Source of the DNA: Odontesthes bonariensis
Taxonomy: Eukaryota > Chordata > Actinopteri > Atheriniformes > Atherinopsidae
Direction: 5' to 3'
Assembly: GCF_027942865.1 (NCBI RefSeq)
Contig: NC_134508.1
Location: 39,677,466-39,741,465, forward strand
DNA: 64,000 nucleotides
Position numbers and translations under genes: made by a program. Shown here one piece after another: positions 1 to 26,851 of this stretch (positions are counted from its first letter, which is position 1; the number at the start of each line of letters is the position of its first letter). The notes beneath the pieces were generated by a model that was not told the origin of the DNA, searched no databases, and saw only the letters and a list, made by a program, of their open reading frames with translations.

Positions 1-709
1 GTCTACCTGAGACAAAGCCCTGAGCCCAGGACACAGCGGTAGTAGTCTTTCCTTTCTGGGTTACGGGGAAGTTTTTTTCTCTTTCCATATCTCACACTGG
101 TCAGATCCTCAGAGAGAATGAGGTGCGGATGAGCTGTGTTTGGATCCAGAATCACAGGTGCATCAGAGACCATCTCTTTCATTTTGCTCCAGATGTTGAA
201 GGTCAGGTTGCCCAGATGTTTGGCCACATCAATCAGAGCTCCTGAGACCAGCTGTGGGTCCTCCAGCAGGCGGCGATGTTGGATTCTTTCCATCGTAGTC
301 TGATAGCTCTGAAGAAATGAGACCTCTGCAGCTCTGAGCGCCTCCTCCGTGGCTCTGATCATATCTGAAAGAGCTGCTATCTCTCTGCTCAGAGCCTCAC
401 TCTTCTCCTTCATCACCTGACTCTTCTGCTCCTCTTCCTCCCTCAGAGCACTAATCCTGGCCTCCTCTTCCTCCTGTAGAAACTGGTGCAGCTTTTTGAA
501 CTGCTTCCTAATCTCTGTCTCGGTGTGTTTGGCCTGGACCCCAATGTGTTCTGCTGTTAGGTCAAAGTTTCCTTTAACCTGGTTAAAAAGATTCCGTTTC
601 TCCTGTAGGAGCCACAGTGATCTCTGCAGCTCTTCTCTGTAATCCTGCACAGCCTCATTGATGGGGCTGAATCTGTGGTTCTTTTTACAGATTTTACAGA
701 TTAAACACA
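1..709 (-). pseudogene. TRIM-family pseudogene copy 3 (5'-truncated, frameshifted)
   Basis: The minus-strand frame starts at the last Cys pair of the B-box (VCLIC), continues through [11 protein letters not shown], a full coiled coil and the linker, and enters the PRY part of the PRY-SPRY domain (LDPNTA, LSEDL, NPER). It is clearly paralogous to the intact TRIM at 2280-3659 but more diverged than the inverted copy. The RING and most of the B-box are absent. Near position 15 two bases are missing relative to the intact gene (TCA--GGGCTTTG where GAG-GGC-TTT is expected). This shifts the frame and ends it at a TAG at 3-5, so the SPRY core cannot be made from this frame; homologous sequence may continue past the window edge. 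A TTTCAG tract sits just upstream of the homologous start and could be an acceptor. Called a pseudogene by inference. Confidence 0.8.
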
Positions 710-2279
710 CTGAAATAACAAAAAGCAGAGGTGGAAAAGGTAGATGCTTTATTGAAGCAGAAAACGTCCAGTTTAAGTATGTAATAAATCCTTAAAGTCA
801 GTCAGTCAACTATTACATTTATTTAGTTTATACATGTGAACTGAACATAAGTACAAGCACAAAGGTAATTACAGATAATTCTTCACAAGACAAATCTAAG
901 GGGGTGTGAATGATTTGTTTGTGAAATTGTGACACTATTCACAAACTTCAGCTACATGAATCTGCATTAATTCTCAAGCTTTGATTTAATCTGACTAAAT
1001 TAAAAATATATGTATGAAAATACATTTGATTCCTTGATTATCCATATGAAAGTCTGAGTCGTTTTTCTTTTTTTTTAAGTTTTAAGAGTAGAGTTTGAAA
1101 CAGCTGGTTCGAGCCTTAACGACGTTTATATGAAGGTTTTCTGAACGCATAAATGAAAGAAAAATAATCTAATGGGGTTTAATATGTAAAGCTGTCAAAT
1201 AAAACACATATCTGCCTCTGAAATGTAGTGATGTGGAAATATAAAGTTATGTAAAACAGTAAAGAACACTACTCATTATGGATGATGTGTGAACAATCAG
1301 GAATAACACATCAGATGTAACTTGTTTTTTAGAATGAGCTCATTCTGTCTGACTGATTTCACCATCAAAGTTACATTTGATTAAATAAAAGTTTGAATTG
1401 TGATACAATCCCCAAATGGTGATCGGCAATAGAGGAAATACTTTGCAACAGACAGATAAATTCATACTTTTCATACTTAGAAACATGAAGTTCCACAAGG
1501 CCTGAATGGACTCCATACGGGTGCAACATGTTTTATCTCTGCTGTACAGAAAGACACATTTTACATCCATTTCAGGCTTGTTAGTCTGTTTGACTCAGTC
1601 TGAATTTAAGCTTTTTTTTATTTTCTGTTGATAATCTTACTCTCATTTTCACAGTTTGGAATTTACTGGGTCAGAAATCTTGAATTTAAGCAGTTTTGTT
1701 TCCCAGTTGAACAACTGTGCCACCTTCTGGCCAGAGCTGCGACTGTCACCGAAATAAAGCAGGAAGACACGTCTTAAGGCTTTTAATGTACTGTTTTAAG
1801 ATTAATTTCTGATCCATTTAACCCTGATTTCACAATTCAGAGCTAACAATGTTTAAAGATACAAGATTTCTGCTTTAGCTGATAACGAAAAACAGCTCGA
1901 AGGGGTCGTATTAGATAATCTGTTTTAGTTTTCAGACCACTGATAATCGAGAATAAGGCAGCAATCTTATTTGTTGGACCAAGGGCAAAGACAAAGCCTG
2001 TCTTTATGAAACAGCAGCGGGAGATAATCTTCATCTTTTTGTATTTTTCAGATCAAAACATGCACCTTGAAAAAGAAATCTAATGTTCCCGTTTGGTGCC
2101 ACAAACTGACACTGTGATGTCTATTCATGGGAGATTTTGGGCTTGGGAGTAATTATCCAGAATTATGGGTTAAACTGGCTCAAATTTAAGGTCTATGTCA
2201 TTATTTTTAACATGTTATGGCACATTCTATTGCTCTGTTTTAATATCACTGTTGTAAAGAAACCATGCTCCTTGAAAGG
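710..2279. other. 3' flank of the intact TRIM gene
   Basis: AT-rich sequence downstream of the minus-strand TRIM gene, duplicated in the right arm at 18277-19925. Short reading frames here (for example 1340-1570 and 1843-2034) have counterparts in the other arm only because the DNA is duplicated; no domain is recognisable. It may be a long 3' UTR. An AATAAA on the minus strand at 748-753 is a possible polyadenylation signal, conserved in the right arm. Confidence 0.5.
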
Positions 2280-3659
2280 TTACACTTCCGGTAATATCCT
2301 CAATGGGAGTTCACCTCCCGTGTAAAAGACTGGAAACAGTCTCTCAGTGCAAGTGTGTGTTAAGTTGTGAATGTGTGTGTTTGTTTCAGCATCAAAGAAT
2401 GACACTCTTCCTCTCTCGCAGTCCAGATGAACGCTGATCACCTGCAGCTTCCTCTCAGGATGAAAAGTGGAGGGATCCTGAGGGGAGATGATGATGTGTT
2501 TGCCTTTAGAAAAAGCAACGGCCCACATTCCAGACTTTACATCAGTGCGTCCCTTCCTTCTTAAAGTTTCTGCTGCAACGCCAACAAACCAGGCGGTGCT
2601 CTCTCCAACTGCAACAGCCCAGCTGTGGGTGCCGGAGTCAAAGCCCTCAGAGGCCAGAACCATGCCGTGATACTCAAACCTCTCGGGGTTCTCAGGCAGA
2701 GTCTGTCTCTGTCCGCGTCTCACACTCATCAGATCCTCAGACAGGATGAGTCCTGCTTCCGCTGTGTTTGGATCCAGAATCACAGGCGTATGAGAGACCA
2801 TCTCTTTCATTTTGCTCCAGATGTTGAAGGTCAGGTTGCCCAGATGTTTGGCCATATCTATCAGAGCTCCTGAGACCAGCTGTGGGTCCTCCAGCAGGGG
2901 GCGATGTTGGATTCTTTCCATCCTAGTCTGATAGTTCTGAAGAAATGAGACCTCTGCAGCTCTGAGCGCCTCCTCCGTGGCTCTGATCATATCTGAAAGA
3001 GCTGCTATCTCTCTGCTCAGAGCCTCACTCTTCTCCTTTATCACCTGACTCTTCTGCTCCTCTTCCTCCCTCAGAGCACTAATCCTGGCCTCCTCTTCCT
3101 CCTGTAGAAACTGGTGCAGCTTTTTGAACTGCTTCCTAATCTCTGTCTCGGTGTGTTTGGCCTGGACCCCAATGTGTTCTGCTGTTAGGTCAAAGTTTCC
3201 TTTAACCTGGTTAAAAAGATTCCGTTTCTCCTGTAGGAGCCACAGTGATCTCTGCAGCTCTTCTCTGTAATCCTGCACAGCCTCATTGATGGGTCTGAAT
3301 CTGTGGTTCTTGTGAGATTCTGAGTCCCTGCAGATGAGACACACAGGCTGCTGATGGTCCAAACAGAACAGTTTGAGCTTCTCAGAGTGCAGACTGCAGA
3401 GATCCTCCGACTCTGTTGCAGATTTCCGATCTCTCTCCCGTAAAAAGGCCTCACACGTGTTTTTTAACACCAAATTACACTGCGGGTGTTCACTTCCAGA
3501 GGCAGCCTTACAAACGGGACACTCACGCATTTTTTTCTTTCTCCACCACCTTTTCAGACAGTTTTTACAAAAGCTGTGGCTGCATGGCAGGAAAACGGGC
3601 TCTCTGAACACGTCCTGGCAAACAGGGCAGGAGAGCTCTTCCTCTAATCCTGAGGCCAT
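2280..3659 (-). CDS. TRIM family E3 ubiquitin ligase, RING/B-box/coiled-coil/PRY-SPRY (A33/TRIM35/TRIM39-like)
   Basis: An intact 459-residue single-exon frame with the full class IV TRIM layout. The RING has C11, C14, C26, H28, C31, C34, C47 and C50 (C3HC4). B-box 2 has C88, H91, C99, H102, C107, C110, H116 and H119. A long Glu/Lys-rich coiled coil spans about 125-250, and PRY-SPRY spans about 290-459 with LDPNTA, LPENPERF, WFVGVA and LDCERGRVSFFD. TRIM proteins of this class are ubiquitin ligases: the RING recruits E2, the coiled coil dimerises and SPRY binds the target. Many fish members act in innate immunity, but a role here is inference. The start is supported by [14 protein letters not shown], the usual N-terminus of this fish subfamily, and by reuse of the same ATG in all copies. 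Orthology to a named mammalian TRIM cannot be settled. It is the only undamaged copy in the window. Confidence 0.93.
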   Translation of the reverse strand: MASGLEEELSCPVCQDVFREPVFLPCSHSFCKNCLKRWWRKKKMRECPVCKAASGSEHPQCNLVLKNTCEAFLRERDRKSATESEDLCSLHSEKLKLFCLDHQQPVCLICRDSESHKNHRFRPINEAVQDYREELQRSLWLLQEKRNLFNQVKGNFDLTAEHIGVQAKHTETEIRKQFKKLHQFLQEEEEARISALREEEEQKSQVIKEKSEALSREIAALSDMIRATEEALRAAEVSFLQNYQTRMERIQHRPLLEDPQLVSGALIDMAKHLGNLTFNIWSKMKEMVSHTPVILDPNTAEAGLILSEDLMSVRRGQRQTLPENPERFEYHGMVLASEGFDSGTHSWAVAVGESTAWFVGVAAETLRRKGRTDVKSGMWAVAFSKGKHIIISPQDPSTFHPERKLQVISVHLDCERGRVSFFDAETNTHIHNLTHTCTERLFPVFYTGGELPLRILPEV

Positions 3660-3950
3660 TTTGTAATCACACCAGACAGAAAGTCTAAACAGGAAGTAAG
3701 ATGCTTACTTCTCTACACGAGTCGTTTTCAGTCTGATTCGTGGTGTCATTCAAAAACTCAAGTTCAGCGACTGAAGTCTGCAGCAAGTTGAAATACACTC
3801 TTCTGTAGCAGTCCTCCCTCGGCTGGAGTTTAAATTTTGAGTTTGCAAATATTGTCCTAATTTCAGCGTGTGGGTCTCTTATCAGAGGAAGAACTTCTGC
3901 TTCCTGGTTCATGTCATGTGATTCATGACATACGTGGAGTTTTGTCATGG
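3660..3950 (-). promoter_or_regulatory. 5' flank of intact TRIM gene, duplicated module
   Basis: The first ~110 bases upstream of the ATG (3660-3771) recur, with few changes, upstream of the chimeric RING frame at 4515-4628 and again in the right arm. They hold an AGGAAGTAAG motif (ETS-like core GGAA) about 30 bases before the ATG. No TATA box is clear. A frame at 3685-3948 has no recognisable domain. Promoter or 5' UTR function is inferred from position and from duplication together with the first coding segment. Confidence 0.4.
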
Positions 3951-4039
3951 AGTGGAGGTGCTCTCACTGTACAGTCTACTATCTTGTGGCATTTTCACCA
4001 CCATTCAGAGAAGTAGAAGTATGATTTTTATTCAGTTGT

Positions 4040-4396
4040 GTAAAAAAAAGAAAGTACACCCTCTTTCAATTCTAAGATATAACATATCAGGAGACAATGG
4101 AAAAAAATTGCTGATCCATATCAGGTCTAAATATTAGGAAGATACAACTACAGGTGAACAACAACACATGACATATTCCACCGTGTTATTATTTATTTAA
4201 CAAAAATAGTCAAAATGCAGAAGCAGTGTGTGAAAACACATATTTATTGCTTTCATGGGAGGGTAAGAGGGCAAGTAGCTGTGTTACTCATCAAATGTCA
4301 TCAATGTCCTTTGGACAGACCAGACCAAAGTGGAGATGTTTGGACATAATGCACAGCAGCACGTTTGGAGAGAACCAAACACAGCATTTTTTTCTT
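4040..4396 (+). mobile_element. Tc1/mariner-derived fragment (left arm)
   Basis: At 4318-4389 the plus strand reads [20 protein letters not shown], matching the WTDE(S/T)K-x-LFG-(N)-x-VWRKP block of fish Tc1-like transposases around the second catalytic Asp. The flanking AT-rich DNA (AAGTACACCCTCTTTC, TTTAACAAAAATAG) resembles common fish Tc1-derived repeats. It abuts the duplicated RING exon at its AAAAAAATG end, so the break lies exactly where the TRIM homology stops. It is only a fragment and no terminal repeat pair was found. Confidence 0.6.
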
Positions 4397-4516
4397 TCTC
4401 CACCACCTTTTCAGACAGTTCTTACAAAAGCTGTGGCTGCATGGCAGGAAAACGGGCTCTCTGAACACGTCCTGGCAAACAGGGCAGGAGAGCTCTTCCT
4501 CTAACCCTGAGGCCAT
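4301..4516 (-). pseudogene. Chimeric RING-Tc1 frame, left arm (truncated TRIM 5' copy)
   Basis: Residues 1-44 are identical to the start of the intact TRIM ([11 protein letters not shown] to WWRKKKM) and then switch to 27 residues encoded by antisense Tc1 sequence, ending at a stop: 71 aa in all. The RING keeps C11, C14, C26, H28, C31 and C34 but loses the last Cys pair (C47, C50), so a normal two-zinc RING cannot form. It has its own copy of the ~110-base upstream module. An identical 71-aa frame is in the right arm at 9347-9562. Most likely a dead partial duplication; expression as a small peptide is only a possibility. Confidence 0.7.
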
Positions 4517-4899
4517 TTTGTAATCACACCAGACAGAGAGTCTAAACAGGAAGTAAGACGCTTACTTGTCTACACGAGTCGTTTTCAGTCTGATTTGTGG
4601 TGTCATTCAAAAATTCACGTTCAGCGACTATTATTATATATATTATTATATAGAACTGCTTGAAAGTAAAATTTCTTGCCATCATTTGTTTCACAAATTT
4701 ATACAACAAACTGAATTACTGGAGGTTAAAATGACTGGACGTTATCCAACAAAAAAGAATGTCACAATGACTGATCCTGAAAGACGTTTAATTTTCTTTT
4801 ATACACCAGCCTGCCTCTTGAATATTACCCAGATACATCTCCAGCTGCAAAAATGGCTCTTCTCCTAGGATGGAGACGCTGTTGGGCTTATTCGTGGTC

Positions 4900-5462
4900 C
4901 TCCTAAAATCAACAGCTGCGGTGATTATTCCCACACCAGGCCACAAAGTGGTCGACCACCTCTCTGCCTCTTGTCCTTCCTTCTCTGGTTACCTGTCAGA
5001 TTTTATTACTAATTTTAAAAGCTTTGAATAGTTGGACGGTTGCCTCTGTCTATGATCTGTGAACTCCTTACTCCCCTGATTGCTGCTTACACGGCCAACT
5101 GTTTAATATAACTGACCTGTTCATTAGATGGAAATGAATCCCTGCATCCTCCTAAAAATCACTTTATTTTGAGGCTTTTTCTTAAAAGTAAAACCCCACT
5201 TTCATAAGTGATTTCATATGATCTTAGAACTATTAAAAAGTTATATCTAATTAGAAATAGTGCAAGTTCTGTGCAATCTGTTGGTTTCCTTAGCCAGGAA
5301 ATAGTTTTTGAATTGGCTCTGTATGAATGAATTGGATTATGATTACAATGAATGGAACTCCAATTGGCCAGAATTGGACTTTATTATTGAAGTGCCCTGA
5401 GATCACATTTGTTGTAATTTGGCATTATATAAAAATAAAACTGAATTGAATTGAATTGCAAG
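4900..5462 (+). mobile_element. LINE 3' end (L2/Rex-like), left arm
   Basis: Decayed coding traces near 4985-5100 (LPVRFYY, ICELLTPL) resemble the C-terminal tail of fish L2/Rex-type reverse transcriptases. They are followed by the typical fish 3' tail: AAGTGCCCTGAGATCACATT, then ATTTGGCATTATATAAA and a run of ATTGA repeats to about 5458. The reverse complement is present at 8399-8960 in the right arm, so the insertion predates the inverted duplication. Confidence 0.55.
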
Positions 5463-5732
5463 TGAAACATATCAAATGTGGAAAAAGAAAAGTTTATTTT
5501 AAAAAACATTTAAAAGAAAAACTGACATTATTCTGTCTTGGAAAACACTGCAGGTAGAAAACATGATACTGGTTGCTGAAAAACTGGCAGAAGTGGACCT
5601 TCCAACGTGACAGTGGCAGGAAGTATTCAGCTGAAGTCGTCGAGAGATTAGTGGTTGGAACCACAGACCAGAAGAGACGAAACAGAAGCCTTCAAACCTG
5701 CAGATCATCCCAGAATAAAGTCCAATTCTCCA

Positions 5733-6018
5733 GTGGAGGCATGAAGAAAGCAGTCGTGAGTACCATAACATACAATTAATACATTAAAACCGACCTGGAC
5801 AATAATATTTTGAGATCCAGGTATTTTGATCCAGATGTCTTCACCCTGTGTGGGAAAACTCCCCCCATTTCCCTGTGTCCGGTACTTTTCCACTATAGGC
5901 CTCATCCCACCTGTTTTGACTACCCCTGTAAGCATTTAGTGTTTTAACCCTTCACACCGTGTGATCAATGCTTGTTCCCTTCAAAAAGGAGTGTATCAAC
6001 TCTGAATAAGCACAATGA
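5733..6018. other. Spacer segment, nothing recognised
   Basis: First part of the 2.4 kb unique spacer between the two palindrome arms. No gene, repeat or RNA is recognisable. Confidence 0.4.
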
Positions 6019-6345
6019 TCAAGATTACTTTATTGTCATGTAGTCATTGTCACACGAAATTACTCCTCGGCATTTAACCCATCCAGGTTGGCAGCTGTTG
6101 AAAACACACATGCACAGGGTCACACACTCATGGAGACAGATGCCATGTACACTGGAGCCGTGGGCAGCCAATCACAGCGCCCGGGGAGCATGGGGGTACG
6201 GTGCCTTGCCTTGCACCGCGGCCATGAGGTGGACTGCCACCCCTCCAGCTGTCAGTTCACCAATCTGAGCAGTGGGAGTGGGAACTGAACCGCCACCCTT
6301 CAGGACGACCCACTGTCACCACTGAGCCACGGCCGCAGAGGCATA
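6019..6345 (-). repeat. tRNA-derived SINE in palindrome spacer (decayed)
   Basis: Read on the minus strand it begins with GGCCGTGGCTCAGTGG (tRNA A-box-like head), followed by a degenerate B box (GGCGGTTCAGTTCCC). A conserved body follows, including GGTACCGTGC-type sequence, GCGCCCGGGGAGC and the AACCCATCCAGGTTGGCA block seen on the plus strand. A second, better preserved copy lies at 15007-15356 inside the LINE. Confidence 0.75.
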
Positions 6346-7720
6346 AATAAGCATAAATGTGTACAGTAAAAGGTGATATTAAAACCTCAGCAATATCAAA
6401 CATACCTGATTTGTCCTTGGAAGAATAACTTTTGAATAGAATTACCTTTTAATTGACACGTAAAACCGTTTCTTATTTTAAATGTAAAACATCAGCAGCC
6501 TTACATCCCACAGAAGACACAGCAGTACCAGAACAACTCGCGGACCAATGTAACCCCTCAGAAGAAAGACCAGAGGTGCCTTCAACATGGAGGAAATTAA
6601 AGAAATACATGACGCCAAAACACCACCGCCAATACAAAGAGAAAACCATCAAGAGAGAAAGAAACAGCAGCGTTTAGAACTCGCACACAAGTCTCGTCAA
6701 CAGCTTGTCAACTTCAAATGAATATAAAATCTTCTCCATACGTCATATTATATCCACATCAATAAAATATGATTCAAATTCATATAACTTTAGTTCATCT
6801 GTATATTTTCATCCTGAACAACTGCACTGCCTGAAAGTATCAAGTGCATTGTTCTCACAGCTGTTAACAGCATTAATGTGTCATTCAGATAAGAATATGA
6901 AGATATGTTCCTTCACAAATTATCATTGCATTGATTTATGTGTTTAAATAGAATAAATATTAAATAACTAAATAACACACTCGTTTGGATTCTTTTATCA
7001 AAATAAGGTTAAAGGGTGATTTTCTTTAAACAAATTGAAATATTGTTGATATCTGGTGTGAAATTTGAATATCTGCAGTAAAATTCTTGTTATGTCCATG
7101 TTATGGTTTGTTATTTTTGGTTTGTTATTTTTGTCATTTTTATACATCTATGGTTTGTATTTACTTGTCAGATATGTCAGATTACATTCTGGTTGTCTGG
7201 ATTAGATTTAGATTTTAGAAATTAAACTTGTTACAAAGAGAAATCTATGAGGAAGCATGTTCCAGGAATCCAGATTATTCAATAAGAATAAAAATGTATT
7301 TGTGAATATTTAAAATTCATAACCCCACGCATGGCGGCAAAAGTTCTGCCAAGGACAAATAATCTGAAATGAGTATTTTAAAGGGCTGATTTGATGTTTA
7401 TCTGCGCTGCACATCCAGCATCATCACTGATAATGATCACTTTTTTGGTTTTGACAAACTGAGTATGATATCTTAAAATGTAGTTTCTACTCATAAAGAA
7501 TGTTACTGTGGAAAAACTGCACCTACGGTTCTGATTAGTACGACTGTAATTTTGACCATAAGGAATGATATTAGAGGTCTTTATGTAAAGCAGTTTACAC
7601 AGTAAATGTTAAAGCAGCTGTCCATGGACACGCTGTACTGATTCAGAAGGAGTCCTGCAATGAAAAGTGTCACCTCTGAAGAAAAGTAAGTTTATGGTGT
7701 GTGTATTTAGGAAACAGCAC
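6346..7720. other. Spacer segment without recognisable gene
   Basis: AT-rich unique DNA. A 74-codon frame at 6453-6677 is Lys/Arg/Gln-rich at its end but matches no family I know. No terminal repeats were recognised. Confidence 0.35.
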
Positions 7721-7977
7721 TTTAAAGGACAAGACCGTTTTTTTGACATTGGGCCCTTGATTTCACATTATAACATGATGTTCTACTCACCCCTGCTTGT
7801 TGTTGGTAATTTGGAGCTGTTCCGAAGATATTCGAGAGGCGTCTGGCTGCTCTCTTGAGATATTCGGCCACGAAACGGTTTCCTATGGGCAACGTTATAC
7901 AGGCACAAACTATGCTGTTAATAATTTATTAATTACTGTACACTAGCACTGATAACGTGGAGGTGTGTCGCTTACTT
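7721..7977. mobile_element. Possible truncated TTAA-type MITE
   Basis: Starts at TTTAAAGGACAAGACCG and runs through ATTGGGCCCTTGATTTC and CTACTCACCCCTGCTTG, a sequence style shared with the TTAA foldback element at 30691-31380 (AAAGGGATAG start, ACTTACCCCTGCTG inside). No matching right terminus was found before the hairpin element at 7981. Confidence 0.35.
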
Positions 7978-7980
7978 AAA

Positions 7981-8124
7981 AAAATCCGGGTTACTGTAAT
8001 TTTGAATTTTTGTCGTAAAGTCTGTGTGTGTTTGTCTGTGGGCTGTCTGTGGTAGTAGCACGATGATGACGTCAGTAACACCCACTTTACGACAAAAATT
8101 CAAAATTGCAGTAACCCGGATTTT
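7981..8124. mobile_element. 144-bp hairpin MITE at the inner palindrome junction
   Basis: Terminal inverted repeats of 41 bp (7981-8021 and 8084-8124), starting AAAATCCGGGTTACTG, match with one mismatch (T/C at base 17) around a 62-bp centre. It ends two bases before the right palindrome arm begins at 8127. No coding capacity and no clear target duplication; superfamily unknown. Confidence 0.85.
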
Positions 8125-8398
8125 CATGGAGAATTGGACTTTATTCTGGGATGATCTGCAGGTTTGAAGGCTTCTGTTTCGTCTCTTCTGGTCTGTGGTT
8201 CCAACCACTAATCTCTCGACGACTTCAGCTGAATACTTCCTGCCACTGTCACGTTGGAAGGTCCACTTCTGCCAGTTTTTCAGCAACCAGTATCATGTTT
8301 TCTACCTGCAGTGTTTTCCAAGACAGAATAATGTCAGTTTTTCTTTTAAATGTTTTTTAAAATAAACTTTTCTTTTTCCACATTTGATATGTTTCACT

Positions 8399-8960
8399 TG
8401 CAATTCAATTCAATTCAGTTTTATTTTTATATAATGCCAAATTACAACAAATGTGATCTCAGGGCACTTCAATAATAAAGTCCAATTCTGGCCAATTGGA
8501 GTTCCATTCATTGTAATCATAATCCAATTCATTCATACAGAGCCAATTCAAAAACTATTTCCTGGCTAAGGAAACCAACAGATTGCACAGAACTTGCACT
8601 ATTTCTAATTAGATATAACTTTTTAATAGTTCTAAGATCATATGAAATCACTTATGAAAGTGGGGTTTTACTTTTAAGAAAAAGCCTCAAAATAAAGTGA
8701 TTTTTAGGAGGATGCAGGGATTCATTTCCATCTAATGAACAGGTCAGTTATATTAAACAGTTGGCCGTGTAAGCAGCAATCAGGGGAGTAAGGAGTTCAC
8801 AGATCATAGACAGAGGCAACCGTCCAACTATTCAAAGCTTTTAAAATTAGTAATAAAATCTGACAGGTAACCAGAGAAGGAAGGACAAGAGGCAGAGAGG
8901 TGGTCGACCACTTTGTGGCCTGGTGTGGGAATAATCACCGCAGCTGTTGATTTTAGGAGG
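8399..8960 (-). mobile_element. LINE 3' end (L2/Rex-like), right arm
   Basis: Inverted copy of 4900-5462, with the ATTGA-repeat tail at 8400-8420 and the same decayed C-terminal reverse transcriptase traces. It was carried here by the inverted duplication, not by a new insertion. Confidence 0.55.
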
Positions 8961-9346
8961 ACCACGAATAAGCCCAACAGCGTCTCCATCCTAGGAGAAG
9001 AGCCATTTTTGCAGCTGGAGATGTATCTGGGTAATATTCAAGAGGCAGGCTGGTGTATAAAAGAAAATTAAACGTCTTTCAGGATCAGTCATTGTGACAT
9101 TCTTTTTTGTTGGATAACGTCCAGTCATTTTAACCTCCAGTAATTCAGTTTGTTGTATAAATTTGTGAAACAAATGATGGCAAGAAATTTTACTTTCAAG
9201 CAGTTCTATATATATAATAATATATATAATAATAGTCGCTGAACGTGAATTTTTGAATGACACCACAAATCAGACTGAAAACGACTCGTGTAGACAAGTA
9301 AGCGTCTTACTTCCTGTTTAGACTCTCTGTCTGGTGTGATTACAAA

Positions 9347-9562
9347 ATGGCCTCAGGGTTAGAGGAAGAGCTCTCCTGCCCTGTTTGCCAGGACGTGTTC
9401 AGAGAGCCCGTTTTCCTGCCATGCAGCCACAGCTTTTGTAAGAACTGTCTGAAAAGGTGGTGGAGAAAGAAAAAAATGCTGTGTTTGGTTCTCTCCAAAC
9501 GTGCTGCTGTGCATTATGTCCAAACATCTCCACTTTGGTCTGGTCTGTCCAAAGGACATTGA
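9347..9562 (+). pseudogene. Chimeric RING-Tc1 frame, right arm
   Basis: Encodes the same 71 residues as 4301-4516: the first 44 residues of the TRIM, lacking the last RING Cys pair, then antisense Tc1-derived sequence. It is preceded by a copy of the ~110-base TRIM upstream module including AGGAAGTAAG. A product is not established. Perfect conservation between arms reflects recent duplication or arm-to-arm conversion and need not mean selection. Confidence 0.7.
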
Positions 9563-9825
9563 TGACATTTGATGAGTAACACAGCTACTTGCCCTCTTAC
9601 CCTCCCATGAAAGCAATAAATATGTGTTTTCACACACTGCTTCTGCATTTTGACTATTTTTGTTAAATAAATAATAACACGGTGGAATATGTCATGTGTT
9701 GTTGTTCACCTGTAGTTGTATCTTCCTAATATTTAGACCTGATATGGATCAGCAATTTTTTTCCATTGTCTCCTGATATGTTATATCTTAGAATTGAAAG
9801 AGGGTGTACTTTCTTTTTTTTACAC
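9468..9825 (-). mobile_element. Tc1/mariner-derived fragment (right arm)
   Basis: Inverted copy of 4040-4396. The transposase trace ([15 protein letters not shown]) reads on the minus strand. It directly follows the truncated RING segment after AAAAAAATG. Confidence 0.6.
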
Positions 9826-10685
9826 AACTGAATAAAAATCATACTTCTACTTCTCTGAATGGTGGTGAAAATGCCACAAGATAGTAGACTGTACAGTGAG
9901 AGCACCTCCACTCCATGACAAAACTCCACGTATGTCATGAATCACATGACATGAACCAGGAAGCAGAAGTTCTTCCTCTGATAAGAGACCCACACGCTGA
10001 AATTAGGACAATATTTGCAAACTCCAAATTTAAACTCCAGCCGAGGGAGGACAGCTACAGAAGAGTGTATTTCAACTTGCTGCAGACTTCAGTCGCTGAA
10101 CTTGAGTTTTTGAATGACACCACGAATCAGACTGAAAACGACTCGTGTAGAGAAGTAAGCATCTTACTTCCTGTTTAGACTTTCTGTCTGGGGTGATTAC
10201 AAAATGGCCTCAGGATTAGAGGAAGAGCTCTCCTGCCCTGTTTGCCAGGACGTGTTCAGAGAGCCCGTTTTCCTGCCATGCAGCCACAGCTTTTGTAAAA
10301 ACTGTCTGAAAAGGTGGTGGAGAAAGAAAAAAATGCGTGAGTGTCCCGTTTGTAAGGCTGCCTCTGGAAGTGAACACCCGCAGTGTAATTTGGTGTTAAA
10401 AAACACGTGTGAGGCCTTTTTACGGGAGAGAGATCGGAAATCTGCGGAGGATCTCTGCAGTCTGCACTCTGAGAAGCTCAAACTGTTCTGTTTGGACCAT
10501 CAGCAGCCTGTGTGTCTCATCTGCAGAGACTCAGAATCTCATAAGAACCATTAGCCCCTTTCACACTGAGGAAGAACCCGCGTTTAATTTGCGAATTTAG
10601 TGTGTCCGCTGTTCCTTTCACACTGACGATCCGGGCTGGGGTGTCAACTCGATTCGCCATTCGACCCGCGTCAGACCCTAGTCTT

Positions 10686-11654
10686 TAGGGGTGGGCGGAT
10701 CGATTTAAAATATCGATAGTATCGATACTAACGTTGCTATTGGGTATTAATCGATACTTGTGTGATGAGATCAATTCTTCTTTTTTGGGGGGGGCTTTTT
10801 ATGCCTTTAATGGACAGACAGTTGGAGAGAGAGACAGGAAGCAGGGGACAGAGAGATGGGGAAGACATGCAGCAGATTGCCACCCCAAAAGGGAAATTTA
10901 AGTTTGAAGTTTTCTATAAACATTTCTGAGTTCCTTAATAAAAGTATTTTTATTTGCCTGTAAACTTTGTCCTGTGTTAATTATCATCATAAACATGATT
11001 AATTAAAGGAAAACTTACATATTTAATTAAAGCTGCAGTCGGCAGGTTTTCAAAATTGCGAGTCTAAAGTCGGAAAATTCGAACTGATACAACTTTCAGG
11101 TCCCTCCCCCAACCTCTAACAAGCTCCGAATCGCCCCCCAAACCCCTCCCCCTCTGTGGACGAGGTTGTGCACGTGAGTTCACACCAGTGTGAGCGCACA
11201 CAAGCTGGGGCAGACTCACGCTCAGCACCGTGTGCACAAGCTGTGATTGACAGGTAGGATTCCTTCACCCTAACTTGATTGGTTAAAAACAGCCTGGAGC
11301 GCTCGATTTTTGCAAGCATGATTACAGGCTTCAGAGGGAGCTACAGATTTCGTTATTTTTACTAAACAGCCTATTTAATATTCTACTTCCAGAATCCCAT
11401 GACAGTTCAAGCTAATATGACTAAAAAAAAGTTGCCGACCGCAGCTTTAAATAATCATAAAAATTCAAGTTTTCATTCAAATTTGCATATTGATGATGCA
11501 TTCACTTAATAAATTATGATACATTGATCTCCCCTACACAAAAGTAGATGGTAGTAGTAAAAAGTATCGGTATTGGTATCGGTATCGGCAATACTGGCCC
11601 TGTATTTACTTAGTATTGGATCGATACCAAATTTTGCAGTATCGCACAGCCCTA
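10686..11654. mobile_element. Non-autonomous hAT element, 969 bp
   Basis: Termini TAGGGGTGGGCGG and CGCACAGCCCTA are imperfect inverted repeats. They are flanked by a perfect 8-bp target duplication CTAGTCTT (10678-10685 and 11655-11662), the hAT signature. Subterminal ATCGATA-type repeats are visible at both ends. No transposase frame is present. A TTAA-type MITE (11027-11450) is nested inside. Confidence 0.92.
11027..11450. mobile_element. TTAA-flanked MITE nested in the hAT element
   Basis: TTAA at both ends (11027-11030 and 11447-11450) encloses inverted termini AGCTGCAGTCGGCA and TGCCGACCGCAGCT, with one mismatch. The TTAA duplication points to piggyBac or Kolobok type. No coding capacity. 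Confidence 0.8.
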
Positions 11655-11777
11655 CTAGTCTTTTTGCCGAGCCGAATTTGATGTGAAAGCAATTGACGCG
11701 GGATGGACGTGGGCGTGGCGTTACGTGAGGAGTTTAAAACTTCAAGTTTTACTCTGCAAGTTCGAGACATTTTCAAG

Positions 11778-12015
11778 ATGGCCAACTGGGGAGACAAGGA
11801 GGTCCGCGAGCTCCTCAGCCTCCGAGCAGAGGACGTTATATACCGCCACATGTCGGGGACGGTAAGAAAGATGGACCTCTGTTTGAAGGGCTGGCGAGAA
11901 AGATGACAGAGCGCGGTTTCCCATGCAGCAAGGTGCAGGTGAGCAACAAACTGAAAGCCATGAGAAAGAAGTTCCATGCGGTTAATGACCACAACGGCAG
12001 GAGTGGCAGAGGGCA
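11778..12015 (+). pseudogene. Harbinger Myb/SANT-like DNA-binding protein fragment
   Basis: From the ATG at 11778 the frame reads MANWGDKEVRELLSLRAED and then a Trp-containing helix (CLKGW) to a stop at 11904-11906. In a shifted frame the domain continues as MTERGFPCSKVQVSNKL and KAMRKKFHAVNDHNGRSG. This is the Myb/SANT-like fold of the Harbinger accessory protein, which binds element ends and brings the transposase. A frameshift near 11900 splits it, so the copy is dead. Confidence 0.75.
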
Positions 12016-13533
12016 ATTGCACTGGCCTCAAGGTGTCCAGCCATCGTTGGTTTGAAAAATTTGATGCAGACAGGTGTGTTTAGGCCTACCTCCGACGCAT
12101 GGGTTGTGCCTACGTCATTGTACACGCCCAGCATTTTATGTGTTTCGTGTGACGCTCTGCCACTAGGCAACGCCCCCGGAACTCGGCTTCAGGCGGCACA
12201 GATCACCTAATACGCCAAGATTTCACATTGCTCGACGCGGGATGAAGTGGCAATTTGGACCTGCAGAGATCACTGTGGCTCCTACAGGAGAAACGGAATC
12301 TTTTTAACCAGGTTAAAGGAAACTTTGACCTAACAGCAGAACACATTGGGGTCCAGGCCAAACACACCGAGACAGAGATTAGGAAGCAGTTCAAAAAGCT
12401 GCACCAGTTTCTACAGGAGGAAGAGGAGGCCAGGATTAGTGCTCTGAGGGAGGAAGAGGAGCAGAAGAGTCAGGTGATAAAGGAGAAGAGTGAGGCTCTG
12501 AGCAGAGAGATAGCAGCTCTTTCAGATATGATCAGAGCCACGGAGGAGGCGCTCAGAGCTGCAGAGGTCTCATTTCTTCAGAACTATCAGACTACGATGG
12601 AAAGAATCTAACATCGCCCCCGGCTGGAGGACCCACAGCTGGTCTCAGGAGCTCTTTTTTTTTCTTTTTTTTAACCCCTTGTCCTGTCCAGCATTATGGT
12701 AGCAGAATTGAAATCTGAATACCGTTTATCCCAAACACATTTGCTATTGGAAGGGAAGCTTTATGAATGTAAATCTCCCCTTGATGCCCATCAACTCCTT
12801 ATTTATTTATTTATTTATTTATTTTTGTTACAATACTTAACATGTGATAATGACGAAGCAGCTTCCCAGCCACCACAGACCCCGAACCAGCAGGACAACT
12901 CCTCCTCCTGGCCCAGGCAACAGGGGTGTGGAAAGACCCCTCCCCTCGCCCCTCTGGCTCTTTGATATTTTCTAATAGTGAGCATTTAAAATTGAGGGGC
13001 AGGCAACCTTGTGGAACTGGGAGCGTGGCCTACATACCCAAAGAGCCCCGCCCACCAGATACCACTCAGTGCTACCACCCCCCAAGACCTAATGTGTGTG
13101 TGTGTGTGTCTCATGAGTGGTGATGTCTAAGGTGTAATTAAAACAAGGGCGGGGGGCTGCAGAGTACAGCAAAGGGGACCACCTACGTGGACCCATCCGC
13201 TGCACCCCGCAGAACACACCCGCCCTCAAAACCCTACGTGTGTGAATGTGTGCTGTGTACAGGAGCTAGAAGGGAGAGGGGTATGGGGATCTAGAAGACC
13301 GGGGGAGAGAGGCTCCCCCGAAGAGGGCAGCCACATAATGGCTGCAATAGGCACCCCTGTTTCCTGTGACCTGCCACAGAGCAGGATGGCTCGATGTTCA
13401 CCAGGTCGGGGCCCGCAGCGTACTCAGGGAGCCACAACCCAAAGGCACGACCCGAGAGGCCACTAGACACCTGAAGCCCCCCCAGCACACAACCAACCGC
13501 CCAGAGTGGCGGGACAGCAACACACCACCCCCA

Positions 13534-14785
13534 CTATGTGATAAAGCTAATGAGCGGGGACCAGAGAGAATGAAATTCAGCCAATTGGTCTTTTGAGGAG
13601 GCAGACATCGTTTCAATGCTAATATAATCTAAAAGAAAAATTCTAAACTGGTTAATACACAGATTGTTCTTTGCTTTCCAGTTCATAAGAATAGTTTTCT
13701 TTACAATACATATCACTGTGAGGACCATGTGTGCTGAGTTAATTTCCATGTTGATGTTGTCCAAGTCACCCAGTATGCACAGAGTGGGGCATGCAGGAAT
13801 TCTACACTCTGTGCAATGTGAGCAGATATTTGAGTGTGTTAGACCCATCCTGAACATCCTTTGTCCTGTTCTGTGAAGGATTTTGTATTGTATGAGCTGC
13901 AAATTAGGATTTTGAGTCATTCTGAAGGTGTTAAAACATATTTGTGGCCAGAGGTTATGGTTTGAATTGGAACTGAAGGATAGATCTGCCTCCCATTTTG
14001 AGGATGGTAAAGAAATTGTGTCATCCATCTTAGACAATAATTTATATATTTCTGATTGCAGTTTTGGTGTGCAGATGCTTAAAAATTCTGCTACTCTAAT
14101 GGGGAGTTGTAAGTCTGGTTTGTGGAGGATATATTTCTTAGTTATTATAGACTTAAGTCGTTGGTATTCTATAAACTTATTGCTTCCTATCCCATGTTGT
14201 GATATGAGCGCATCGAATGAAATCAAATTTCCATTTTGGATAATATGTTCCAGATGTTTTAGTCCTTTGTTCTTCCAAAGAGTAAAGTTTAGCATTTTTT
14301 TGTTTTGCAGGATGTTAGGATTGTTCCAGATGGGTGTAAGTTTACACGGGAGAAGTGAGGACTTTGTAATTTTAAGAAATTCCCAACAGGCTGTCAGAGA
14401 GGTGCTGATGTTAATGCTTTTGAAGCATTTGTGATGTTTTACATTTGGACTAATAAGTGGCAGAGTTTTCCAGATTATCACATAATGCTTGTTCTATATT
14501 TATCCATGGTTCATCTAGTGGGCTAGATTTAAACCATTTTGATATATATTGTAACCTATTGGCTAAGAAATAGTGCTGAAAATTAGATAAATCTAATCCA
14601 CCACTGTCCTTGGTCTTCTGTAGAGTTTTTAAACTAATACGTGGTGGTTTGTTTTTCCACAGAAATTTGGAGATGCATGAATCTAGTGACTTAAACCAAG
14701 TAGCAGCTGGTTTTATGGGGATCATTGAAAACAAATAGTTAACTTTTGGTAATACCATAATTTTAATGGTAGCGACTCTCCCCAT
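13534..14785 (-). pseudogene. LINE ORF2 C-terminal region
   Basis: Frames at 14450-14785 (MGRVATIKIMVLPKVNYLF, FLWKNKPPRISL, GGLDLSN) and 13534-14481 (KMLNFTLWKNKGL, HLEHIIQNG, RLKSIITKKYI) match the long region after the reverse transcriptase in L1/Tx1-clade ORF2 proteins. They overlap in different frames, showing a frameshift near 14470. The second frame is the longest surviving piece of the element (315 codons). Confidence 0.85.
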
Positions 14786-15006
14786 AAGTGATATGGGTAA
14801 TGACTTCCAACGAGTGAGATCATCCTCTACTGTCTTTAAGAGTTGAACATAATTTAGCTTTGTTAGCTCTGAGAGCCTGGAGGAAATGTTTATGCCTAAA
14901 TATCTAATATTTCCTGTAAAGTGATAGCAGGTATATTATTGAAACTACAGTTGATGGGCAGAACTGTGGTCTTAGACCAGTTGATAGAGTAGTCAGAAAG
15001 TGCTGA

Positions 15007-15356
15007 GAATTTAAGATTAAGATTAAGATCCAATTTATTGGTCATGCATACACACAAAATTTGTCCTCCGCTTTTAACCCATCCAGGTTGGCACCTGTTG
15101 ACACACACGCACAGGGTCACACACTCAGAGACAGATGCCAACCTGGAGCGGTGGGCAGCCATGAAGCGCCCGGGGAGCATGGGGAGCATGGGGGGTACGG
15201 TGCCTTGCTCAAGGGCACCTCAGCCGTGACAAGGAGGTGGACTGACACCCCTCCAGCTATCAGTTCCACCAATCTTTTTTGAGTGGCGAGAGTGGGAATC
15301 AAACCGCCAACCTTCCGGTTATTGGACGATCGACTCTAACCACTGAGCCACGGCTG
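15007..15356 (-). repeat. tRNA-derived SINE nested in the LINE
   Basis: Minus-strand head GCCGTGGCTCAGTGGTTAGA (A-box-like), then AACCGGAAGGTTGGCGG and GGTTTGATTCCC (B-box-like), a conserved middle containing GAGGTGCCCTTGAGC, and a tail ending in repeats of ATCTTA near 15015-15030. It is the same family as 6019-6345. It sits where the LINE should encode the catalytic (F/Y)ADD motif. No target duplication was recognised. Confidence 0.85.
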
Positions 15357-16900
15357 AATGTGATCTGAACTTATTTTATGTTCAATATTTTTGGGATGGA
15401 TGCCTTTAATATTTCCATCTTGTCTGATAGCAGCTGCTAAAGGTTCGATGAAGATGGCAAAAAGTGAGGGTGAAAGTGGGTAACCCTGTCTGGTACCTCT
15501 CTGCAGACTGAAGCTTGGAGAAATTTGATCATTTGTCCTGACACATGCATTTAGGGAGCTGTATAGTATCCTTATCCAGTTAATGAAGTATGACCATAAC
15601 CCGAATTTGTTTAACGCTGCAAATAAGAATTTCCAGTTAACTTTATCAAATGCTTTTTCAGCATCTAGACTCAGAGACAATTGTGGTTTCCAAGTTGTTG
15701 ATGGTAGAATAATTGTTAGCCCGATTCTTTATATTGGAAGCCCAAGAACCAGTTGGAGCAGTCTTAAGTTAAACAAAGTATTTATTGGAGGTCACAGGTC
15801 AAGTATCAGCGCTGGACTTGGAGATACAGAGTTCTCGCATGAAATCCGTCCGACCAAGTCCCGAGATCCGGAAACATTTCATATTTATGTTCACCCTTAT
15901 CTCAGAGGTTGTACCTACACTTGACAATGCATCATTGAATATTTACTCATGATGTGAGCAGGCCATCCACCGTCTTCGTCATGTTCTTTGGATGTGATAA
16001 GCGATGTGTGTGTGTGAGTGTTGTTTAAGGCGTGCATCTACTGCACCAGACCTATCTGTCCTAAGAGGCGCTTTATCTGACCCAGTTATTTTATCCCGCT
16101 ACGTCATCTTAAAGTGTTGGACATACATTGCGTTGTATGAGCAGAGTGTAATGTACAAACTAGGAACATAGATTATCTAGAGAACTACAGAATATGACTA
16201 CATAAAGTCTAAGAATAAAGCCAATTTATAACAAATCTATGAGATTAATTAGTCTGCTTGTGTTAGTGGATGAGTGTCTACCCTTTATAAAACTTTTCTG
16301 GTCAGGATGTATGATAAGGGGAGTTATTTTTTCTATTCTTTTGACGAGGGCTTTGCAAATTATTTTGAGGTCTACATTTATTAGTGATATTGGGCGGTAG
16401 CTGGATGGAAGTACAGGGTCTTTTCCTGGTTTCTGTAAAAGGATAATGTTAGCAGAGTTCATGTTAGGAGATAATCTGCCATTCTCCTTGACTTGTAAAA
16501 CTATTTTGTGAAATGTAGGTTCCAAAACAGTCCAAAATTCTTTGTAGAACTCAGCTGGAAAACCATCTGGTCCTCGGGCTTTGTTACTAGGCATATGTTG
16601 AAGGGCTTCATGGAGTTATCTTGTTGAGAGAGGTGAATCCAGAGCCGTGGCCTGCTCAAGTTGTAATTTTGGGAGGTTGATGCTACTAAGAAACTGATCT
16701 ATGTTTCTGTCTGGTGGATCATTTTGTGATGAATATATAGTTTTATAGAAGTCCCTAAAAGCATTGTTGATTACATCAGGGTCATGGGTAATATTTCCTT
16801 CCGAATCCCTAACCGAAGAGATTGTTGTTTTCTCTTTGTTTACCTTTAATTGATTTGCTAGGAACCTTCCAGATTTATTGCCATGCTCAAAATTCTCCAA
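15357..16900 (-). pseudogene. LINE reverse transcriptase region (ORF2), broken
   Basis: Three blocks on the minus strand: 16616-16900 (pre-RT region); 16226-16594 (ARGPDGFPAEFYKEFW, LLQKPGKDP, SYRPISLINVDLKI, FIKGR), which holds RT motifs 0-2; and 15361-15680 (LSLDAEKAFDKVNW, QRGTRQGYPLSPSLFAIFIEPLA), which holds motifs A and B. The catalytic YADD/FADD block expected after IKGI is missing at the SINE junction. The solo-LTR-like insert splits the middle. Confidence 0.88.
15702..16233 (-). mobile_element. Solo-LTR-like insertion in the LINE, 532 bp
   Basis: Inserted between LINE codons for NLID and STTWK. On the minus strand it starts TGTTATAAATTGGC and ends TTATTCTACCA, i.e. TG...CA, and carries an internal AATAAATACTTTG polyadenylation-type signal in its last third, as retroelement LTRs do. 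No internal retroviral genes are present and I could not find a 4-6 bp target duplication, so the class is uncertain. Confidence 0.6.
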
Positions 16901-17209
16901 GCGAAGTCTTTGTATCAGGAACTGTGTTTGTTTATCAATAATTTCATTTAGTTCAAGTTTAGCTTTCCTTAATTCATTCAGTATGTGTTCCTCTTTGGAG
17001 GCACTGTAGACAACTTCTAATGATTTAATCCTGAGTTCTAAATCTGATACTTTCCCTCTTTTTCTTATTTGATGAAAAAGAGATTATTTTGCCTCTCATA
17101 ACTACTTTTCCCGCTTCCCAGAGAACACAAGCTGACATTCCTGGCAGGTCATTATTTTCTAGATATATAGACCATTCTCTTTTGAAATAATTAATAAAAT
17201 CAGGGTCTT

Positions 17210-17680
17210 TTAGTAATGAATAAATCTCCAATTTCTAACTGGTGGTGTAACTCTGTTATTCTTCAGTGTGATAGAAACTGGAGCGTGATCACTGATAGTG
17301 GTGGGTTGGATTTTGGTGTCTGAAATATCACTCATCACAGAACTGCTAACTAAGAAATAAGCTATTCTTGAACATGAGTGGTGTACTGCTGAGAAGAAGG
17401 TGTACTTTCTGAGAGTGGGGTGGTGGGAGCGCCAAGCATCACAAAGACCAAAATCATTCATATATTGTTTTACAACATTTGTGGACTGCCAGTTCCGCTG
17501 ACTTCCTGTAGTACTGCACCTGTCCACTCCTGAGTCAGATACCATGTTAAAGTCCCGTCCTATGATGAGTGTGTTATCTGAATGATCAGAGAGTGAAGTG
17601 AAAAAGGAGTGGAAAAACGAGGGGTCATCAACATTTGGGCCATATATATTAGCATAGACTCATATTTTGGATCAATAAGT
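17210..17680 (-). pseudogene. LINE endonuclease C-terminal remnant
   Basis: The minus-strand frame 17210-17545 contains RNWQSTNVVKQYMNDF, DAWRSHHP, YTFFSAVHHSCSRIAYFLVS and the diagnostic SDHAPVSI of apurinic-like endonucleases of LINEs. The upstream catalytic residues are absent because the insertion is 5'-truncated at the target duplication. Confidence 0.85.
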
Positions 17681-18276
17681 TCTCAGGAGCTCAGATAGAT
17701 ATGGCCAAACATCTGGGCAACCTGACATTCAACATCTGGAGCAAAATGAAAGAGATGGTCTCTCATACGCCTGTGATTCTGGATCCAAACACAGCGGAAG
17801 CAGGACTCATCCTGTCTGAGGATCTGATGAGTGTGAGACGCGGACAGAGACAGACTCTGCCTGAGAACCCCGAGAGGTTTGAGTATCACGGCATGGTTCT
17901 GGCCTCTGAGGGCTTTGACTCCGGCACCCACAGCTGGGCTGTTGCAGTTGGACAGAGCATCGCCTGGTTTGTTGGCGTTGCAGCAGAAACTTTAAGAAGG
18001 AAGGGACGCACTGATGTAAAGTCTGGAATGTGGGCCGTTGCTTTTTCTAAAGGCAAACACATCATCATCTCCCCTCAGGATCCCTCCACTTTTCATCCTG
18101 AGAGGAAGCTGCAGGTGATCAGCGTTCATCTGGACTGCGAGAGAGGAAGAGTGTCATTCTTTGATGCTGAAACAAACACACACATTCACAACTTAACACA
18201 CACTTGCACTGAGAGACTGTTTCCAGTCTTTTACACGGGAGGTGAACTCCCATTGAGGATATTACCGGAAGTGTAA

Positions 18277-19944
18277 CCTTTCAAGGAGCATGGTTTCTTT
18301 ACAACAGTGATATTAAAACAGAGCAATAGAATGTGCCATAACATGTTAAAAATGATGACATATAGACCTTAAATTTGAGCCAGTTTAACCCATAATTCTG
18401 GATAATTACTCCCAAGCCCAAAATCTCCCATGAATAGACATCACAGTGTCAGTTTGTGGCACCAAATGGGAACATTAGATTTCTTTTTCAAGGTGCATGT
18501 TTTGATCTGAAAAATACAAAAAGATGAAGATTATCTCCCGCTGCTGTTTCATAAAGACAGGCTTTGTCTTTGCCCTTGGTCCAACAAATAAGATTGCTGC
18601 CTTATTCTCGATTATCAGTGGTCTGAAAACTAAAACAGATAATCTAATAAGACCCCTTCGAGCTGTTTTTCGTTATCAGCTAAAGCAGAAATCTTGTATC
18701 TTTAAACATTGTTAGCTCTGAATTGTGAAATCAGGGTTAAATGGATCAGAAATTAATCTTAAAACAGTACATTAAAAGCCTTAAGACGTGTCTTCCTGCT
18801 TTATTTCGGTGACAGTCGCAGCTCTGGCCAGAAGGTGGCACAGTTGTTCAACTGGGAAACAAAACTGCTTAAATTCAAGATTTTTGACCCAGTAAATTCC
18901 AAACCATGAAAATGAGAATTAGATTATCAACAGAAAATAAAAAAAAGCTTAAATTCAGACTGAGTCAAACAGACTAACAAGCCTGAAATGGATGTAAAAT
19001 GTGTCTTTCTGTACAGCAGAGATAAAACATGTTGCACCCGTATGGAGTCCATTCAGGCCTTTTGGAACTTCATGTTTCTAAGTATGAAAAGTATGAATTT
19101 ATCTGTCTGTTGCAAAGTATTTCCTCTATTGCCGATCACCATTAGGGGATTGAATCACAATTCACACTTTTATTTAATCAAATGAATAGTGCAGAAGATT
19201 TAAGTAGCCCTATTGGATTAGAGCATTTTTAAGCTTGTTCAAGTTGAGTCAAACTCTGTAACTTTGATGGTGAAATAAGTCAGACAGAATGAGCTCATTC
19301 TAAAAAAACAAGTTACATCTGATGTGTTATTCCTGATTGTTCACACATCATCCATAATGAGTAGGGTTCTTTACTGTTTTACATAACTTTATATTTCGAC
19401 TTCACTACATTTCAGAGGCAGATATGTGTTTTATTTGACAGCTTTACATGTTAAACCCCATTATATTATTTTTCTTTCATTTATGCGTTCAGAAAACCTT
19501 CATATAAACGTCGTTAAGGCTCGAACCAGCTGTTTCAAATTCTACTCTTAAAACTTAAAAAAAAAGCAAAACGCCTCAGACTTTCATATGAATAATCAAG
19601 GAATTAAATGTATTTTCATACATATATTTTTAATTTAGTCAGATTAAATCAAAGCTTGAGAATTAATGCATGCATATAACTGAAGTTTGTGGATCGTGTC
19701 ACAATTTCACAAACAAATCATTCACACCCCCTTAGATTTGTCTTGTGAAGCATTGTATGTAATTACCTTTGTGATTGTACTTATGTTCAGTTCACATGTA
19801 TAAACTAAATAAATGTAATAGTTGACTGACTGACTTCAAGGATTTATTACATACTTAAACTGGACGTTTTCTGCTTCAATAAAGCATCTGAGAACCCTTT
19901 CCACCTCTGCTTTTTGTTGTTTCAATGTGTTTAATCTGTAAAAT
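18277..19944. other. 3' flank of TRIM copy 2
   Basis: Inverted counterpart of 691-2279, with about 80 bases near 19186-19270 that the left arm lacks. No gene is recognised. The TTTCAG tract found at the left outer end (near 712) is TTTCAA here. Confidence 0.5.
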
Positions 19945-22415: not shown

Positions 22416-22490
22416 TGTTGCTGTAACTTTTTGGAATTTCTCCTTGTTGGATGAATAAAGGTCTATCTTATCTTATCTCAATCCCTTTTA
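22416..22490 (+). repeat. LINE/SINE 3' tail with TCTTA repeats
   Basis: GTTGCTGTAACTTTTTGGAA, then GAATAAAGGTCTATCTTATC and further TTATC units: the common 3' terminus of fish non-LTR elements. The body upstream is not recognisable. Confidence 0.5.
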
Positions 22491-22851
22491 ATCACATAAA
22501 GACCATAACAACAGATCTGTGGTCACCAGTGAACACAGTGTGAAGATGTTTGATAAAACACTGTTGTGCTTTGGTAAAGTGTATTCTTTTCAGGGCTCTT
22601 TGCAGGTCTTGAAATTTTGATTTTAGGAATAAAAGAAGTTAGTTTTTTATTATTGACTGTGGAAATTCGTGATTAGATCAACAATATCTACAAATAACAA
22701 AAAAAATCTTTGTCTGTAATGGTAGGTCATCATCATCGAACTTTATTTCAGACACACAGAAGTCCATTCATTTGAAGAGCAACAATAAAATAACAAAAAA
22801 CACAATATCTCATCTCATAAAGTCTACAGTGATGTAGTTAATACAAGCACA

Positions 22852-22852
<1 letters not shown>

Positions 22853-22943
<91 letters not shown>
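22853..22943. repeat. (ATCT)n microsatellite
   Basis: About 22 uninterrupted tetranucleotide units over 91 bases. It ends about 850 bases before the mtss1 start codon, just before the CpG-richer first-exon region. Confidence 0.98.
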
Positions 22944-22949
22944 GTTGGC

Positions 22950-26841: not shown

Positions 26842-26851
26842 CGGCTACGAC

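Follow-up and report, generated by a model that had tools for sequence, protein, structure and literature searches.

A TRIM35-like gene and its broken inverted copy in Odontesthes bonariensis: a probable origin at a palindromic mobile element

Introduction

How does a gene come to stand beside a reversed copy of itself, and what becomes of each copy afterwards? The question is raised by a locus in the fish Odontesthes bonariensis, where an intact TRIM35-like gene lies in one arm of an inverted duplication and its ruined counterpart lies in the other. We analysed a stretch of 64,000 bp of NC_134508.1 (C3; positions 39677466-39741465), called the window here, and all coordinates are window-based unless stated otherwise. 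Genome searches covered the assembly of 945,434,557 bases in 187 contigs. The answer we think probable is that a TRIM35-like block of about 5 kb was copied once, in reverse, beside itself after breakage at a hairpin-prone element, that conversion between the arms followed, and that the copy decayed. The locus is thus a compact natural record of an immune-type gene copy that was born inverted and then died. It allows the source arm to be identified, the inner breakpoint to be read to the base, and two large insertions to be dated after the duplication.

Two inverted arms around a spacer

The inverted duplication is confirmed in this assembly. Comparison of the sequence with itself gave four inverted pairs, far above chance and consistent with one duplicated block: 3304-5732 with 8127-10550 (innermost, 99.3% identity), 2863-3260 with 12258-12655 (99.0%), 1374-2875 with 17681-19184 (98.7%) and 691-1375 with 19257-19944 (outermost, 95.5%). 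Arm A, which we take to be the progenitor copy, runs from 691 to 5732 on the plus strand; arm B, the derived copy, runs from 8127 to 19944 on the minus strand and holds three stretches that arm A lacks: 10551-12257, 12655-17681 and, near 19185-19256, about 73 bp. The arms are separated by a spacer of 2,394 bp (5733-8126) that is not duplicated and is made up of a dispersed repeat to 7725, a foldback element at 7722-8124 and then 2 bp. The initial annotation had described a palindromic duplication with unequal arms, and this was borne out; its breakpoints, its 2.4 kb spacer and its three interruptions of arm B were correct to within a few bases.

Could two alleles, or a chimeric read, have been joined in inverted orientation during assembly? 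The innermost 1.9 kb of the arms, identical save for one microsatellite indel, speaks for such an artefact, as does the fact that the public gene models seem to derive from the same assembly. However, the window is free of N and the locus sits on a contig of 46.5 Mb. The arms differ in a graded fashion, up to 3.5%, and arm B has two large private insertions. At the inner junction two mobile elements are cut at specific points, with 2 bases added, and the outer flanks of the two arms differ. We consider an artefact very improbable.

Two further claims about the arms did not hold up. The shared content of the arms was said to include a LINE (long interspersed nuclear element) 3′ end, which is unsupported: the outer block 691-2282 had no match in the assembly beyond the two arms in a whole-assembly search that skipped very common words. 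On the same result we rejected the idea that the outer 685 bp are two LINE copies, with the outer break lying in repeat homology. A Tc1 remnant, also listed as shared content, could not be confirmed. Three inner-arm frames outside the RING fragment described below gave no Pfam match, so a Tc1 identity for the inner-arm repeat was set aside. No conserved RNA reached Rfam gathering scores in 1-21000, and no tRNA was reported within the window.

Arm A as the source and the inner junction as a cut

The border between arm A and the spacer lies inside the dispersed repeat, which extends from 4857 to 7725. Its arm part, 4857-5732, gave 5,721 first-look candidates in the genome, 40 of which were scored. 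Copies on contigs C7, C25 and C21 read straight through 5732/5733; over 160 query bases their identities are 96, 93 and 88%. The copy on C21 has 11 bp inserted on the arm side, at 10 bp from the border. The genome search listed further copies that span the same border. Because repeat copies elsewhere run through 5732/5733, the arm A/spacer border is, by this comparison, native, and the start of arm B at 8127 is a cut within the dispersed repeat. At the outer end, the last 20 bp of arm A encode in-frame B-box residues (VCLIC) of TRIM1, a neighbouring TRIM pseudogene (1-710, minus strand) that leaves the window and reaches about -231. These residues fit arm A as the original at that end too. Judged from its borders, then, arm A is the progenitor and arm B is derived.

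On the spacer side the junction cuts a second repeat. A palindromic (foldback) mobile element occupies 7722-8124, inserted in the dispersed repeat at a TTAA (7722-7725). It gave 1,246 first-look candidates, of which 40 were scored, 39 of them outside the window. All 39 match as far as 8124 and, unlike the window copy, carry on beyond it. Their reverse matches are symmetric to query base 1 in 36 cases and reach bases 50, 53 and 68 in the other three, whereas the window copy retains only the core, query bases 82-225. Since all 39 other scored copies go beyond 8124, the window element is truncated there by the inner junction of arm B, which thereby cuts repeats on both sides. Only two bases, CA, lie between the element and arm B, with 0 bp of microhomology at the join.

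The left end of the element falls at about 7722. Among 25 scored copies, 9 begin at 7721-7722 and 16 at 7709-7720, and the host repeat stops at 7725 in all 14 scored copies, so that repeat and element overlap by four bases, TTAA. A TTAA target site is a mark of piggyBac elements; for the present element the TTAA overlap is seen at one end, the other end being lost. The element is high-copy, and the 39 scored copies are 97-99% identical to the one in the window. It looks like a young foldback family that inserts at TTAA. The retained core of 144 bp folds as DNA at -45.6 kcal/mol, against a shuffle mean of -12.9 (z -13.2; 0 of 200 shuffles as good). As a separate observation, a DDE_Tnp_1_7 transposase fragment, which we take to be piggyBac-type, lies at 50485-50949 on the minus strand (Pfam E 5.6e-21).

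The inverted arrangement might also have arisen in two steps, by a direct tandem duplication and a later small inversion of one copy. The TRIM family is amplified in arrays in this genome, and TRIM1 is an older direct copy next door, both of which suit such a history. It requires two events and more breakpoints, however, and neither the block as a whole nor the spacer is seen to recur at the locus as a direct copy; the sole outside match of the spacer is a dispersed-repeat stretch of 315 bp that is 77% like one inside the second insertion of arm B. We think this order of events unlikely.

An intact gene on arm A and a broken copy on arm B

Arm A carries an intact single-exon TRIM35-like gene of 459 residues at 2283-3659 on the minus strand. 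RING, B-box, PRY and SPRY domains lie in one open frame, all four above their Pfam cut-offs. The coiled coil is assigned by homology; Pfam TRIM_CC had no match to the arm A protein at E 0.001, and below-cut-off matches were seen to TRIM1 and to the arm B pieces. Among the best 120 of 7,710 protein matches considered, one from the grunion Leuresthes tenuis (P0003), likewise of 459 residues, is 93% identical to the arm A protein, with 32 differences, and is likely its orthologue.

The corresponding gene on arm B, at 10204-18273 on the plus strand, survives in three pieces (10204-10551, 12258-12659 and 17683-18273) and contains one nonsense codon. The four domains found together on arm A are scattered over these separate pieces. 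Insertion 1 (10551-12257; 1,707 bp) replaces 43 bp of the gene, equivalent to 3261-3303 of arm A. It holds a 432-bp repeat that recurs some 2 kb beyond the left edge of the window, and its longest frame had no Pfam match. Insertion 2 (12655-17681, minus strand) is a LINE-type retrotransposon of about 5 kb with reverse-transcriptase pieces: RVT_1 was found in two pieces above the cut-off, and an endonuclease match was weak and below it. The A-rich tail expected of such an element is present, as a T-run at the left edge of this minus-strand copy. An 11-bp target duplication, CTCAGGAGCTC, flanks the LINE at 12644-12654 and 17682-17692. Arm A holds CTCAGGAGCTC once at the same place, an empty site. 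Because the target is duplicated in arm B and single in arm A, the LINE landed after the duplication. It had been proposed from the letters alone that one gene is intact and that the other was destroyed by insertions after the duplication, and the empty site upholds this.

Between the arms, the protein differs at 10 amino-acid columns. Compared with Leuresthes tenuis, 7 are changed on arm B and none clearly on arm A; the other 3, one of which is the nonsense codon, could not be assigned to an arm. The SPRY end is nearly identical, as first described: of 197 residues 3 differ, including one at the edge of the LINE. 

Might arm B still be expressed, with both insertions removed as introns? A public gene model named TRIM35-like, P0016, proposes just this. 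Its exons are exactly 10204-10509, 12288-12566 and 17680-18273 of arm B, in phase, and its introns of 1,778 and 5,113 bp are GT-AG; together they remove both insertions and leave out the nonsense codon. Yet the model lacks some B-box and coiled-coil residues, 2 of its 4 splice sites seem weak (judged by eye against the consensus), and all 7 assignable amino-acid changes fall on arm B. The prediction may rest on homology alone. We hold expression of arm B to be very improbable and take P0016 to be a prediction artefact. A public gene model can in this way present a broken copy as a coding gene.

Each arm also carries a duplicated TRIM 5′ fragment with the start of the RING domain, at 4384-4629 on arm A (minus strand) and at 9234-9479 on arm B (plus strand). 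This second fragment had been noted from the start, and the two are identical, with 0 mismatches. Within arm A the fragment differs from the gene (3527-3772) at 8 of 246 bases, and within arm B at 9; between the arms, fragment and gene differ at 0 and 1 bases. Since the copies differ more within an arm than between arms, the fragment predates the inverted duplication.

Divergence in steps along the arms

Comparison of the arms gave 49 mismatches over 4,988 compared bases, a count that omits gap columns, the 43 bp that arm B lacks and an additional mismatch at the edge of the LINE. These mismatches fall in tiers, with 33/1008, 16/2086 and 0/1894 from the outside towards the spacer, or identities of 96.7% in the outer tier, 99.2% in the middle tier and 100% of 1,894 bases in the inner tier; arms above 99% identity are the benchmark for gene-converting palindromes. 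By segment, with borders set by the analyst, the outer counts are 24/683 (691-1375) and 9/325 (1376-1700), and the middle counts are 7/1162 (1701-2862), 4/398 (2863-3260) and 5/526 (3304-3838). The inner tier of arm A, 3839-5732, differs from arm B by one 4-bp TA-repeat indel and by no substitution. Two change points, at 1675 and 3839, improved the Bayesian information criterion by 39.6 over a single rate, compared with 36.0 for one point and 34.4 for three. None of 20,000 random placements of the mismatches produced a clean run of 1,894 bases; the longest was 1,298.

Non-coding bases alone give the same order (33/1008, 6/716 and 0/1894; counts entered by hand), with Fisher p values of 0.0008 for the outer tier against 1701-2282 only and 0.0004 for 6/716 against 0/1894. 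Because the order is kept in these bases, coding constraint is not the cause of the steps. Gene conversion between the arms is the simplest reading of the pattern. The two insertions fall within the middle tier, and no part of the clean tier extends past them from the spacer side; this suggests that conversion may later have been confined to the uninterrupted stem.

The steps could instead reflect regional differences in mutation rate, or replacement of the outer part from elsewhere. A single genome was compared, and the outer tier could be a mutation hot spot or could have been converted by an unassembled paralogue. Set against this, the search of the assembly found no third copy of the outer block, the steps remain when non-coding bases are taken by themselves, and a substitution-free run of 1,894 bases is far outside a uniform rate. 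We regard an explanation other than conversion as rather unlikely.

With conversion between the arms as the preferred reading, a more specific history can be offered, though tentatively. After a reverse copy seeded at the palindromic element, the zone of conversion may have shrunk, spanning 1675-5732 at first and, once the two insertions had arrived, only the spacer side, leaving the copy beyond them free to decay. If this is true, it is the insertion of mobile elements that decides where gene copies evolve in concert and where they evolve independently.

A proposed origin by reverse copying

Three steps of this history we count as shown: the source arm, the non-homologous joint that cuts two repeats, and the loss of the gene on the copy. 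The inner joint connects the hairpin-prone element, in reverse orientation, to a point 2.4 kb upstream, non-homologously and with a 2-bp filler. On arm B the gene was destroyed by three changes, namely a 1.7 kb insertion that replaced 43 bp, the LINE, and a nonsense codon, while the source gene stayed whole.

The remaining steps would run as follows. A break or a stalled fork at the hairpin-forming element may have produced a free end; quasi-palindrome fragility has been reported as a source of breaks (PMC3855049). By folding back or by a template switch, the free end would then have reached 5732, and copying would have proceeded outward from there as far as 691, leaving the 2.4 kb spacer as a loop. 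The copied end would have been sealed to unrelated sequence at 19945. Later, conversion between the arms may have reset 1675-5732, and more recently the innermost 1.9 kb only.

Several points weigh against this account. The inner junction has no inverted microhomology (0 bp, 2 extra bases); in the junctions described in the consulted part of a study of fold-back events, 13 of 21 had microhomology of 2-8 bp and 5 of 21 had insertions (PMC3907307). The missing microhomology counts against the exact fold-back form. The lost half of the foldback element turned up neither in the rest of the window nor in a laxer search of 19901-30000, and the right flank, 19945-20544, is single-copy save for two matches of about 80 bp elsewhere in the assembly. 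These searches thus gave no evidence that the spacer and the right flank adjoined each other before the event. We infer conversion from the divergence pattern of one genome alone, in which it may have run in either direction, and the borders of the tiers do not coincide with the insertion positions.

Relation to other inverted duplications

Inverted gene duplication in fish is already on record, and the present case is a well-resolved example of an otherwise known kind and mechanism. In guppy and its relatives, the LWS opsin genes include an inverted tandem duplication, with an intergenic distance given as 3,329 bp in guppy and 3,718 bp in swordtail (PMC2527612, PMC3087554). As in the locus described here, a fish gene was copied inverted a few kb away, and the passages drawn on ascribe opsin hybrid genes or homogenisation to exchange between copies. 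Unlike those genes, which are tail-to-tail and both described there as opsin genes, the copies here are head-to-head, one is dead, and the breakpoint has been dissected. Zebrafish chromosome 23 carries an inverted duplication of ftr58 and ftr59, also within a fish TRIM family (PMC2657112); the finTRIM genes have introns according to the portion cited, in contrast to the single-exon TRIM35-like gene here. The initial view that palindromic duplication is rarely shown so directly was accordingly overstated, given the fish inverted duplications described in the consulted parts of PMC2527612 and PMC2657112, the latter in a TRIM family.

Fold-back inverted duplications leave a disomic spacer between the inverted copies, for which the excerpted results give 766-70,466 bp with a median of 3,428 (PMC3907307). 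The single-copy spacer of 2,394 bp falls inside that range. In the human cases presented there, the rearrangements are large, come with terminal deletions, translocations or rings, and often show inverted microhomology; the present event is an interstitial block of 5 kb with none at its junction. Mammalian sex-chromosome palindromes are kept alike by gene conversion from arm to arm, in the parts of the literature used here (PMC8981503, PMC3723533). In both, the arms are inverted and most alike, at very high identity, towards the centre, but near-identity in the present locus is limited to the inner 1.9 kb. Comparison of the locus between related silversides would bear on two wider matters: a seeding role of palindromic foldback elements in inverted gene duplication, and a possible halt to conversion where insertions land.

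TRIM copies elsewhere on the chromosome

We scanned for inverted pairs in two regions, a 200 kb TRIM array (C3:2560001-2760000, in contig coordinates) and 84 kb around the locus. The large array holds 13 TRIM matches over 150 residues in two orientations. Ten of the 13 are single near-full-length matches, and for this reason a single exon looks normal for the TRIM family in this genome. Of 64 inverted pairs there (at least 400 bp, at least 85% identity), the 25 longest are each separated by more than 88 kb. Under looser limits (200 bp or more, identity of 80% or more) there are 97 pairs, and the eight with the closest spacing do not exceed 610 bp in length. Palindromic duplication as a general mode of TRIM expansion, as first suggested, was not borne out by this array. 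The interpretation that prompted this work is, as a whole, partly supported. The 12 longest inverted pairs of the array are 3.4-3.9 kb long, 96-97% identical and about 88-181 kb apart.

Next to the duplication, TRIM1 is a patchwork. Its coiled-coil part matches the intact gene at about 99%, with 4 differences in 398 bases common to all three copies, and its PRY part at about 80% (79.5% against arm B); the SPRY part is found, with its frames broken, beyond the left edge of the window. So sharp a chimera looks like a second conversion tract, in this case between direct repeats. Further out, some 3.2 kb to the left of the window, there is an older TRIM scrap. Within the window, overlapping tandem arrays at 46384-46712 have units that include 22 and 75 bp.

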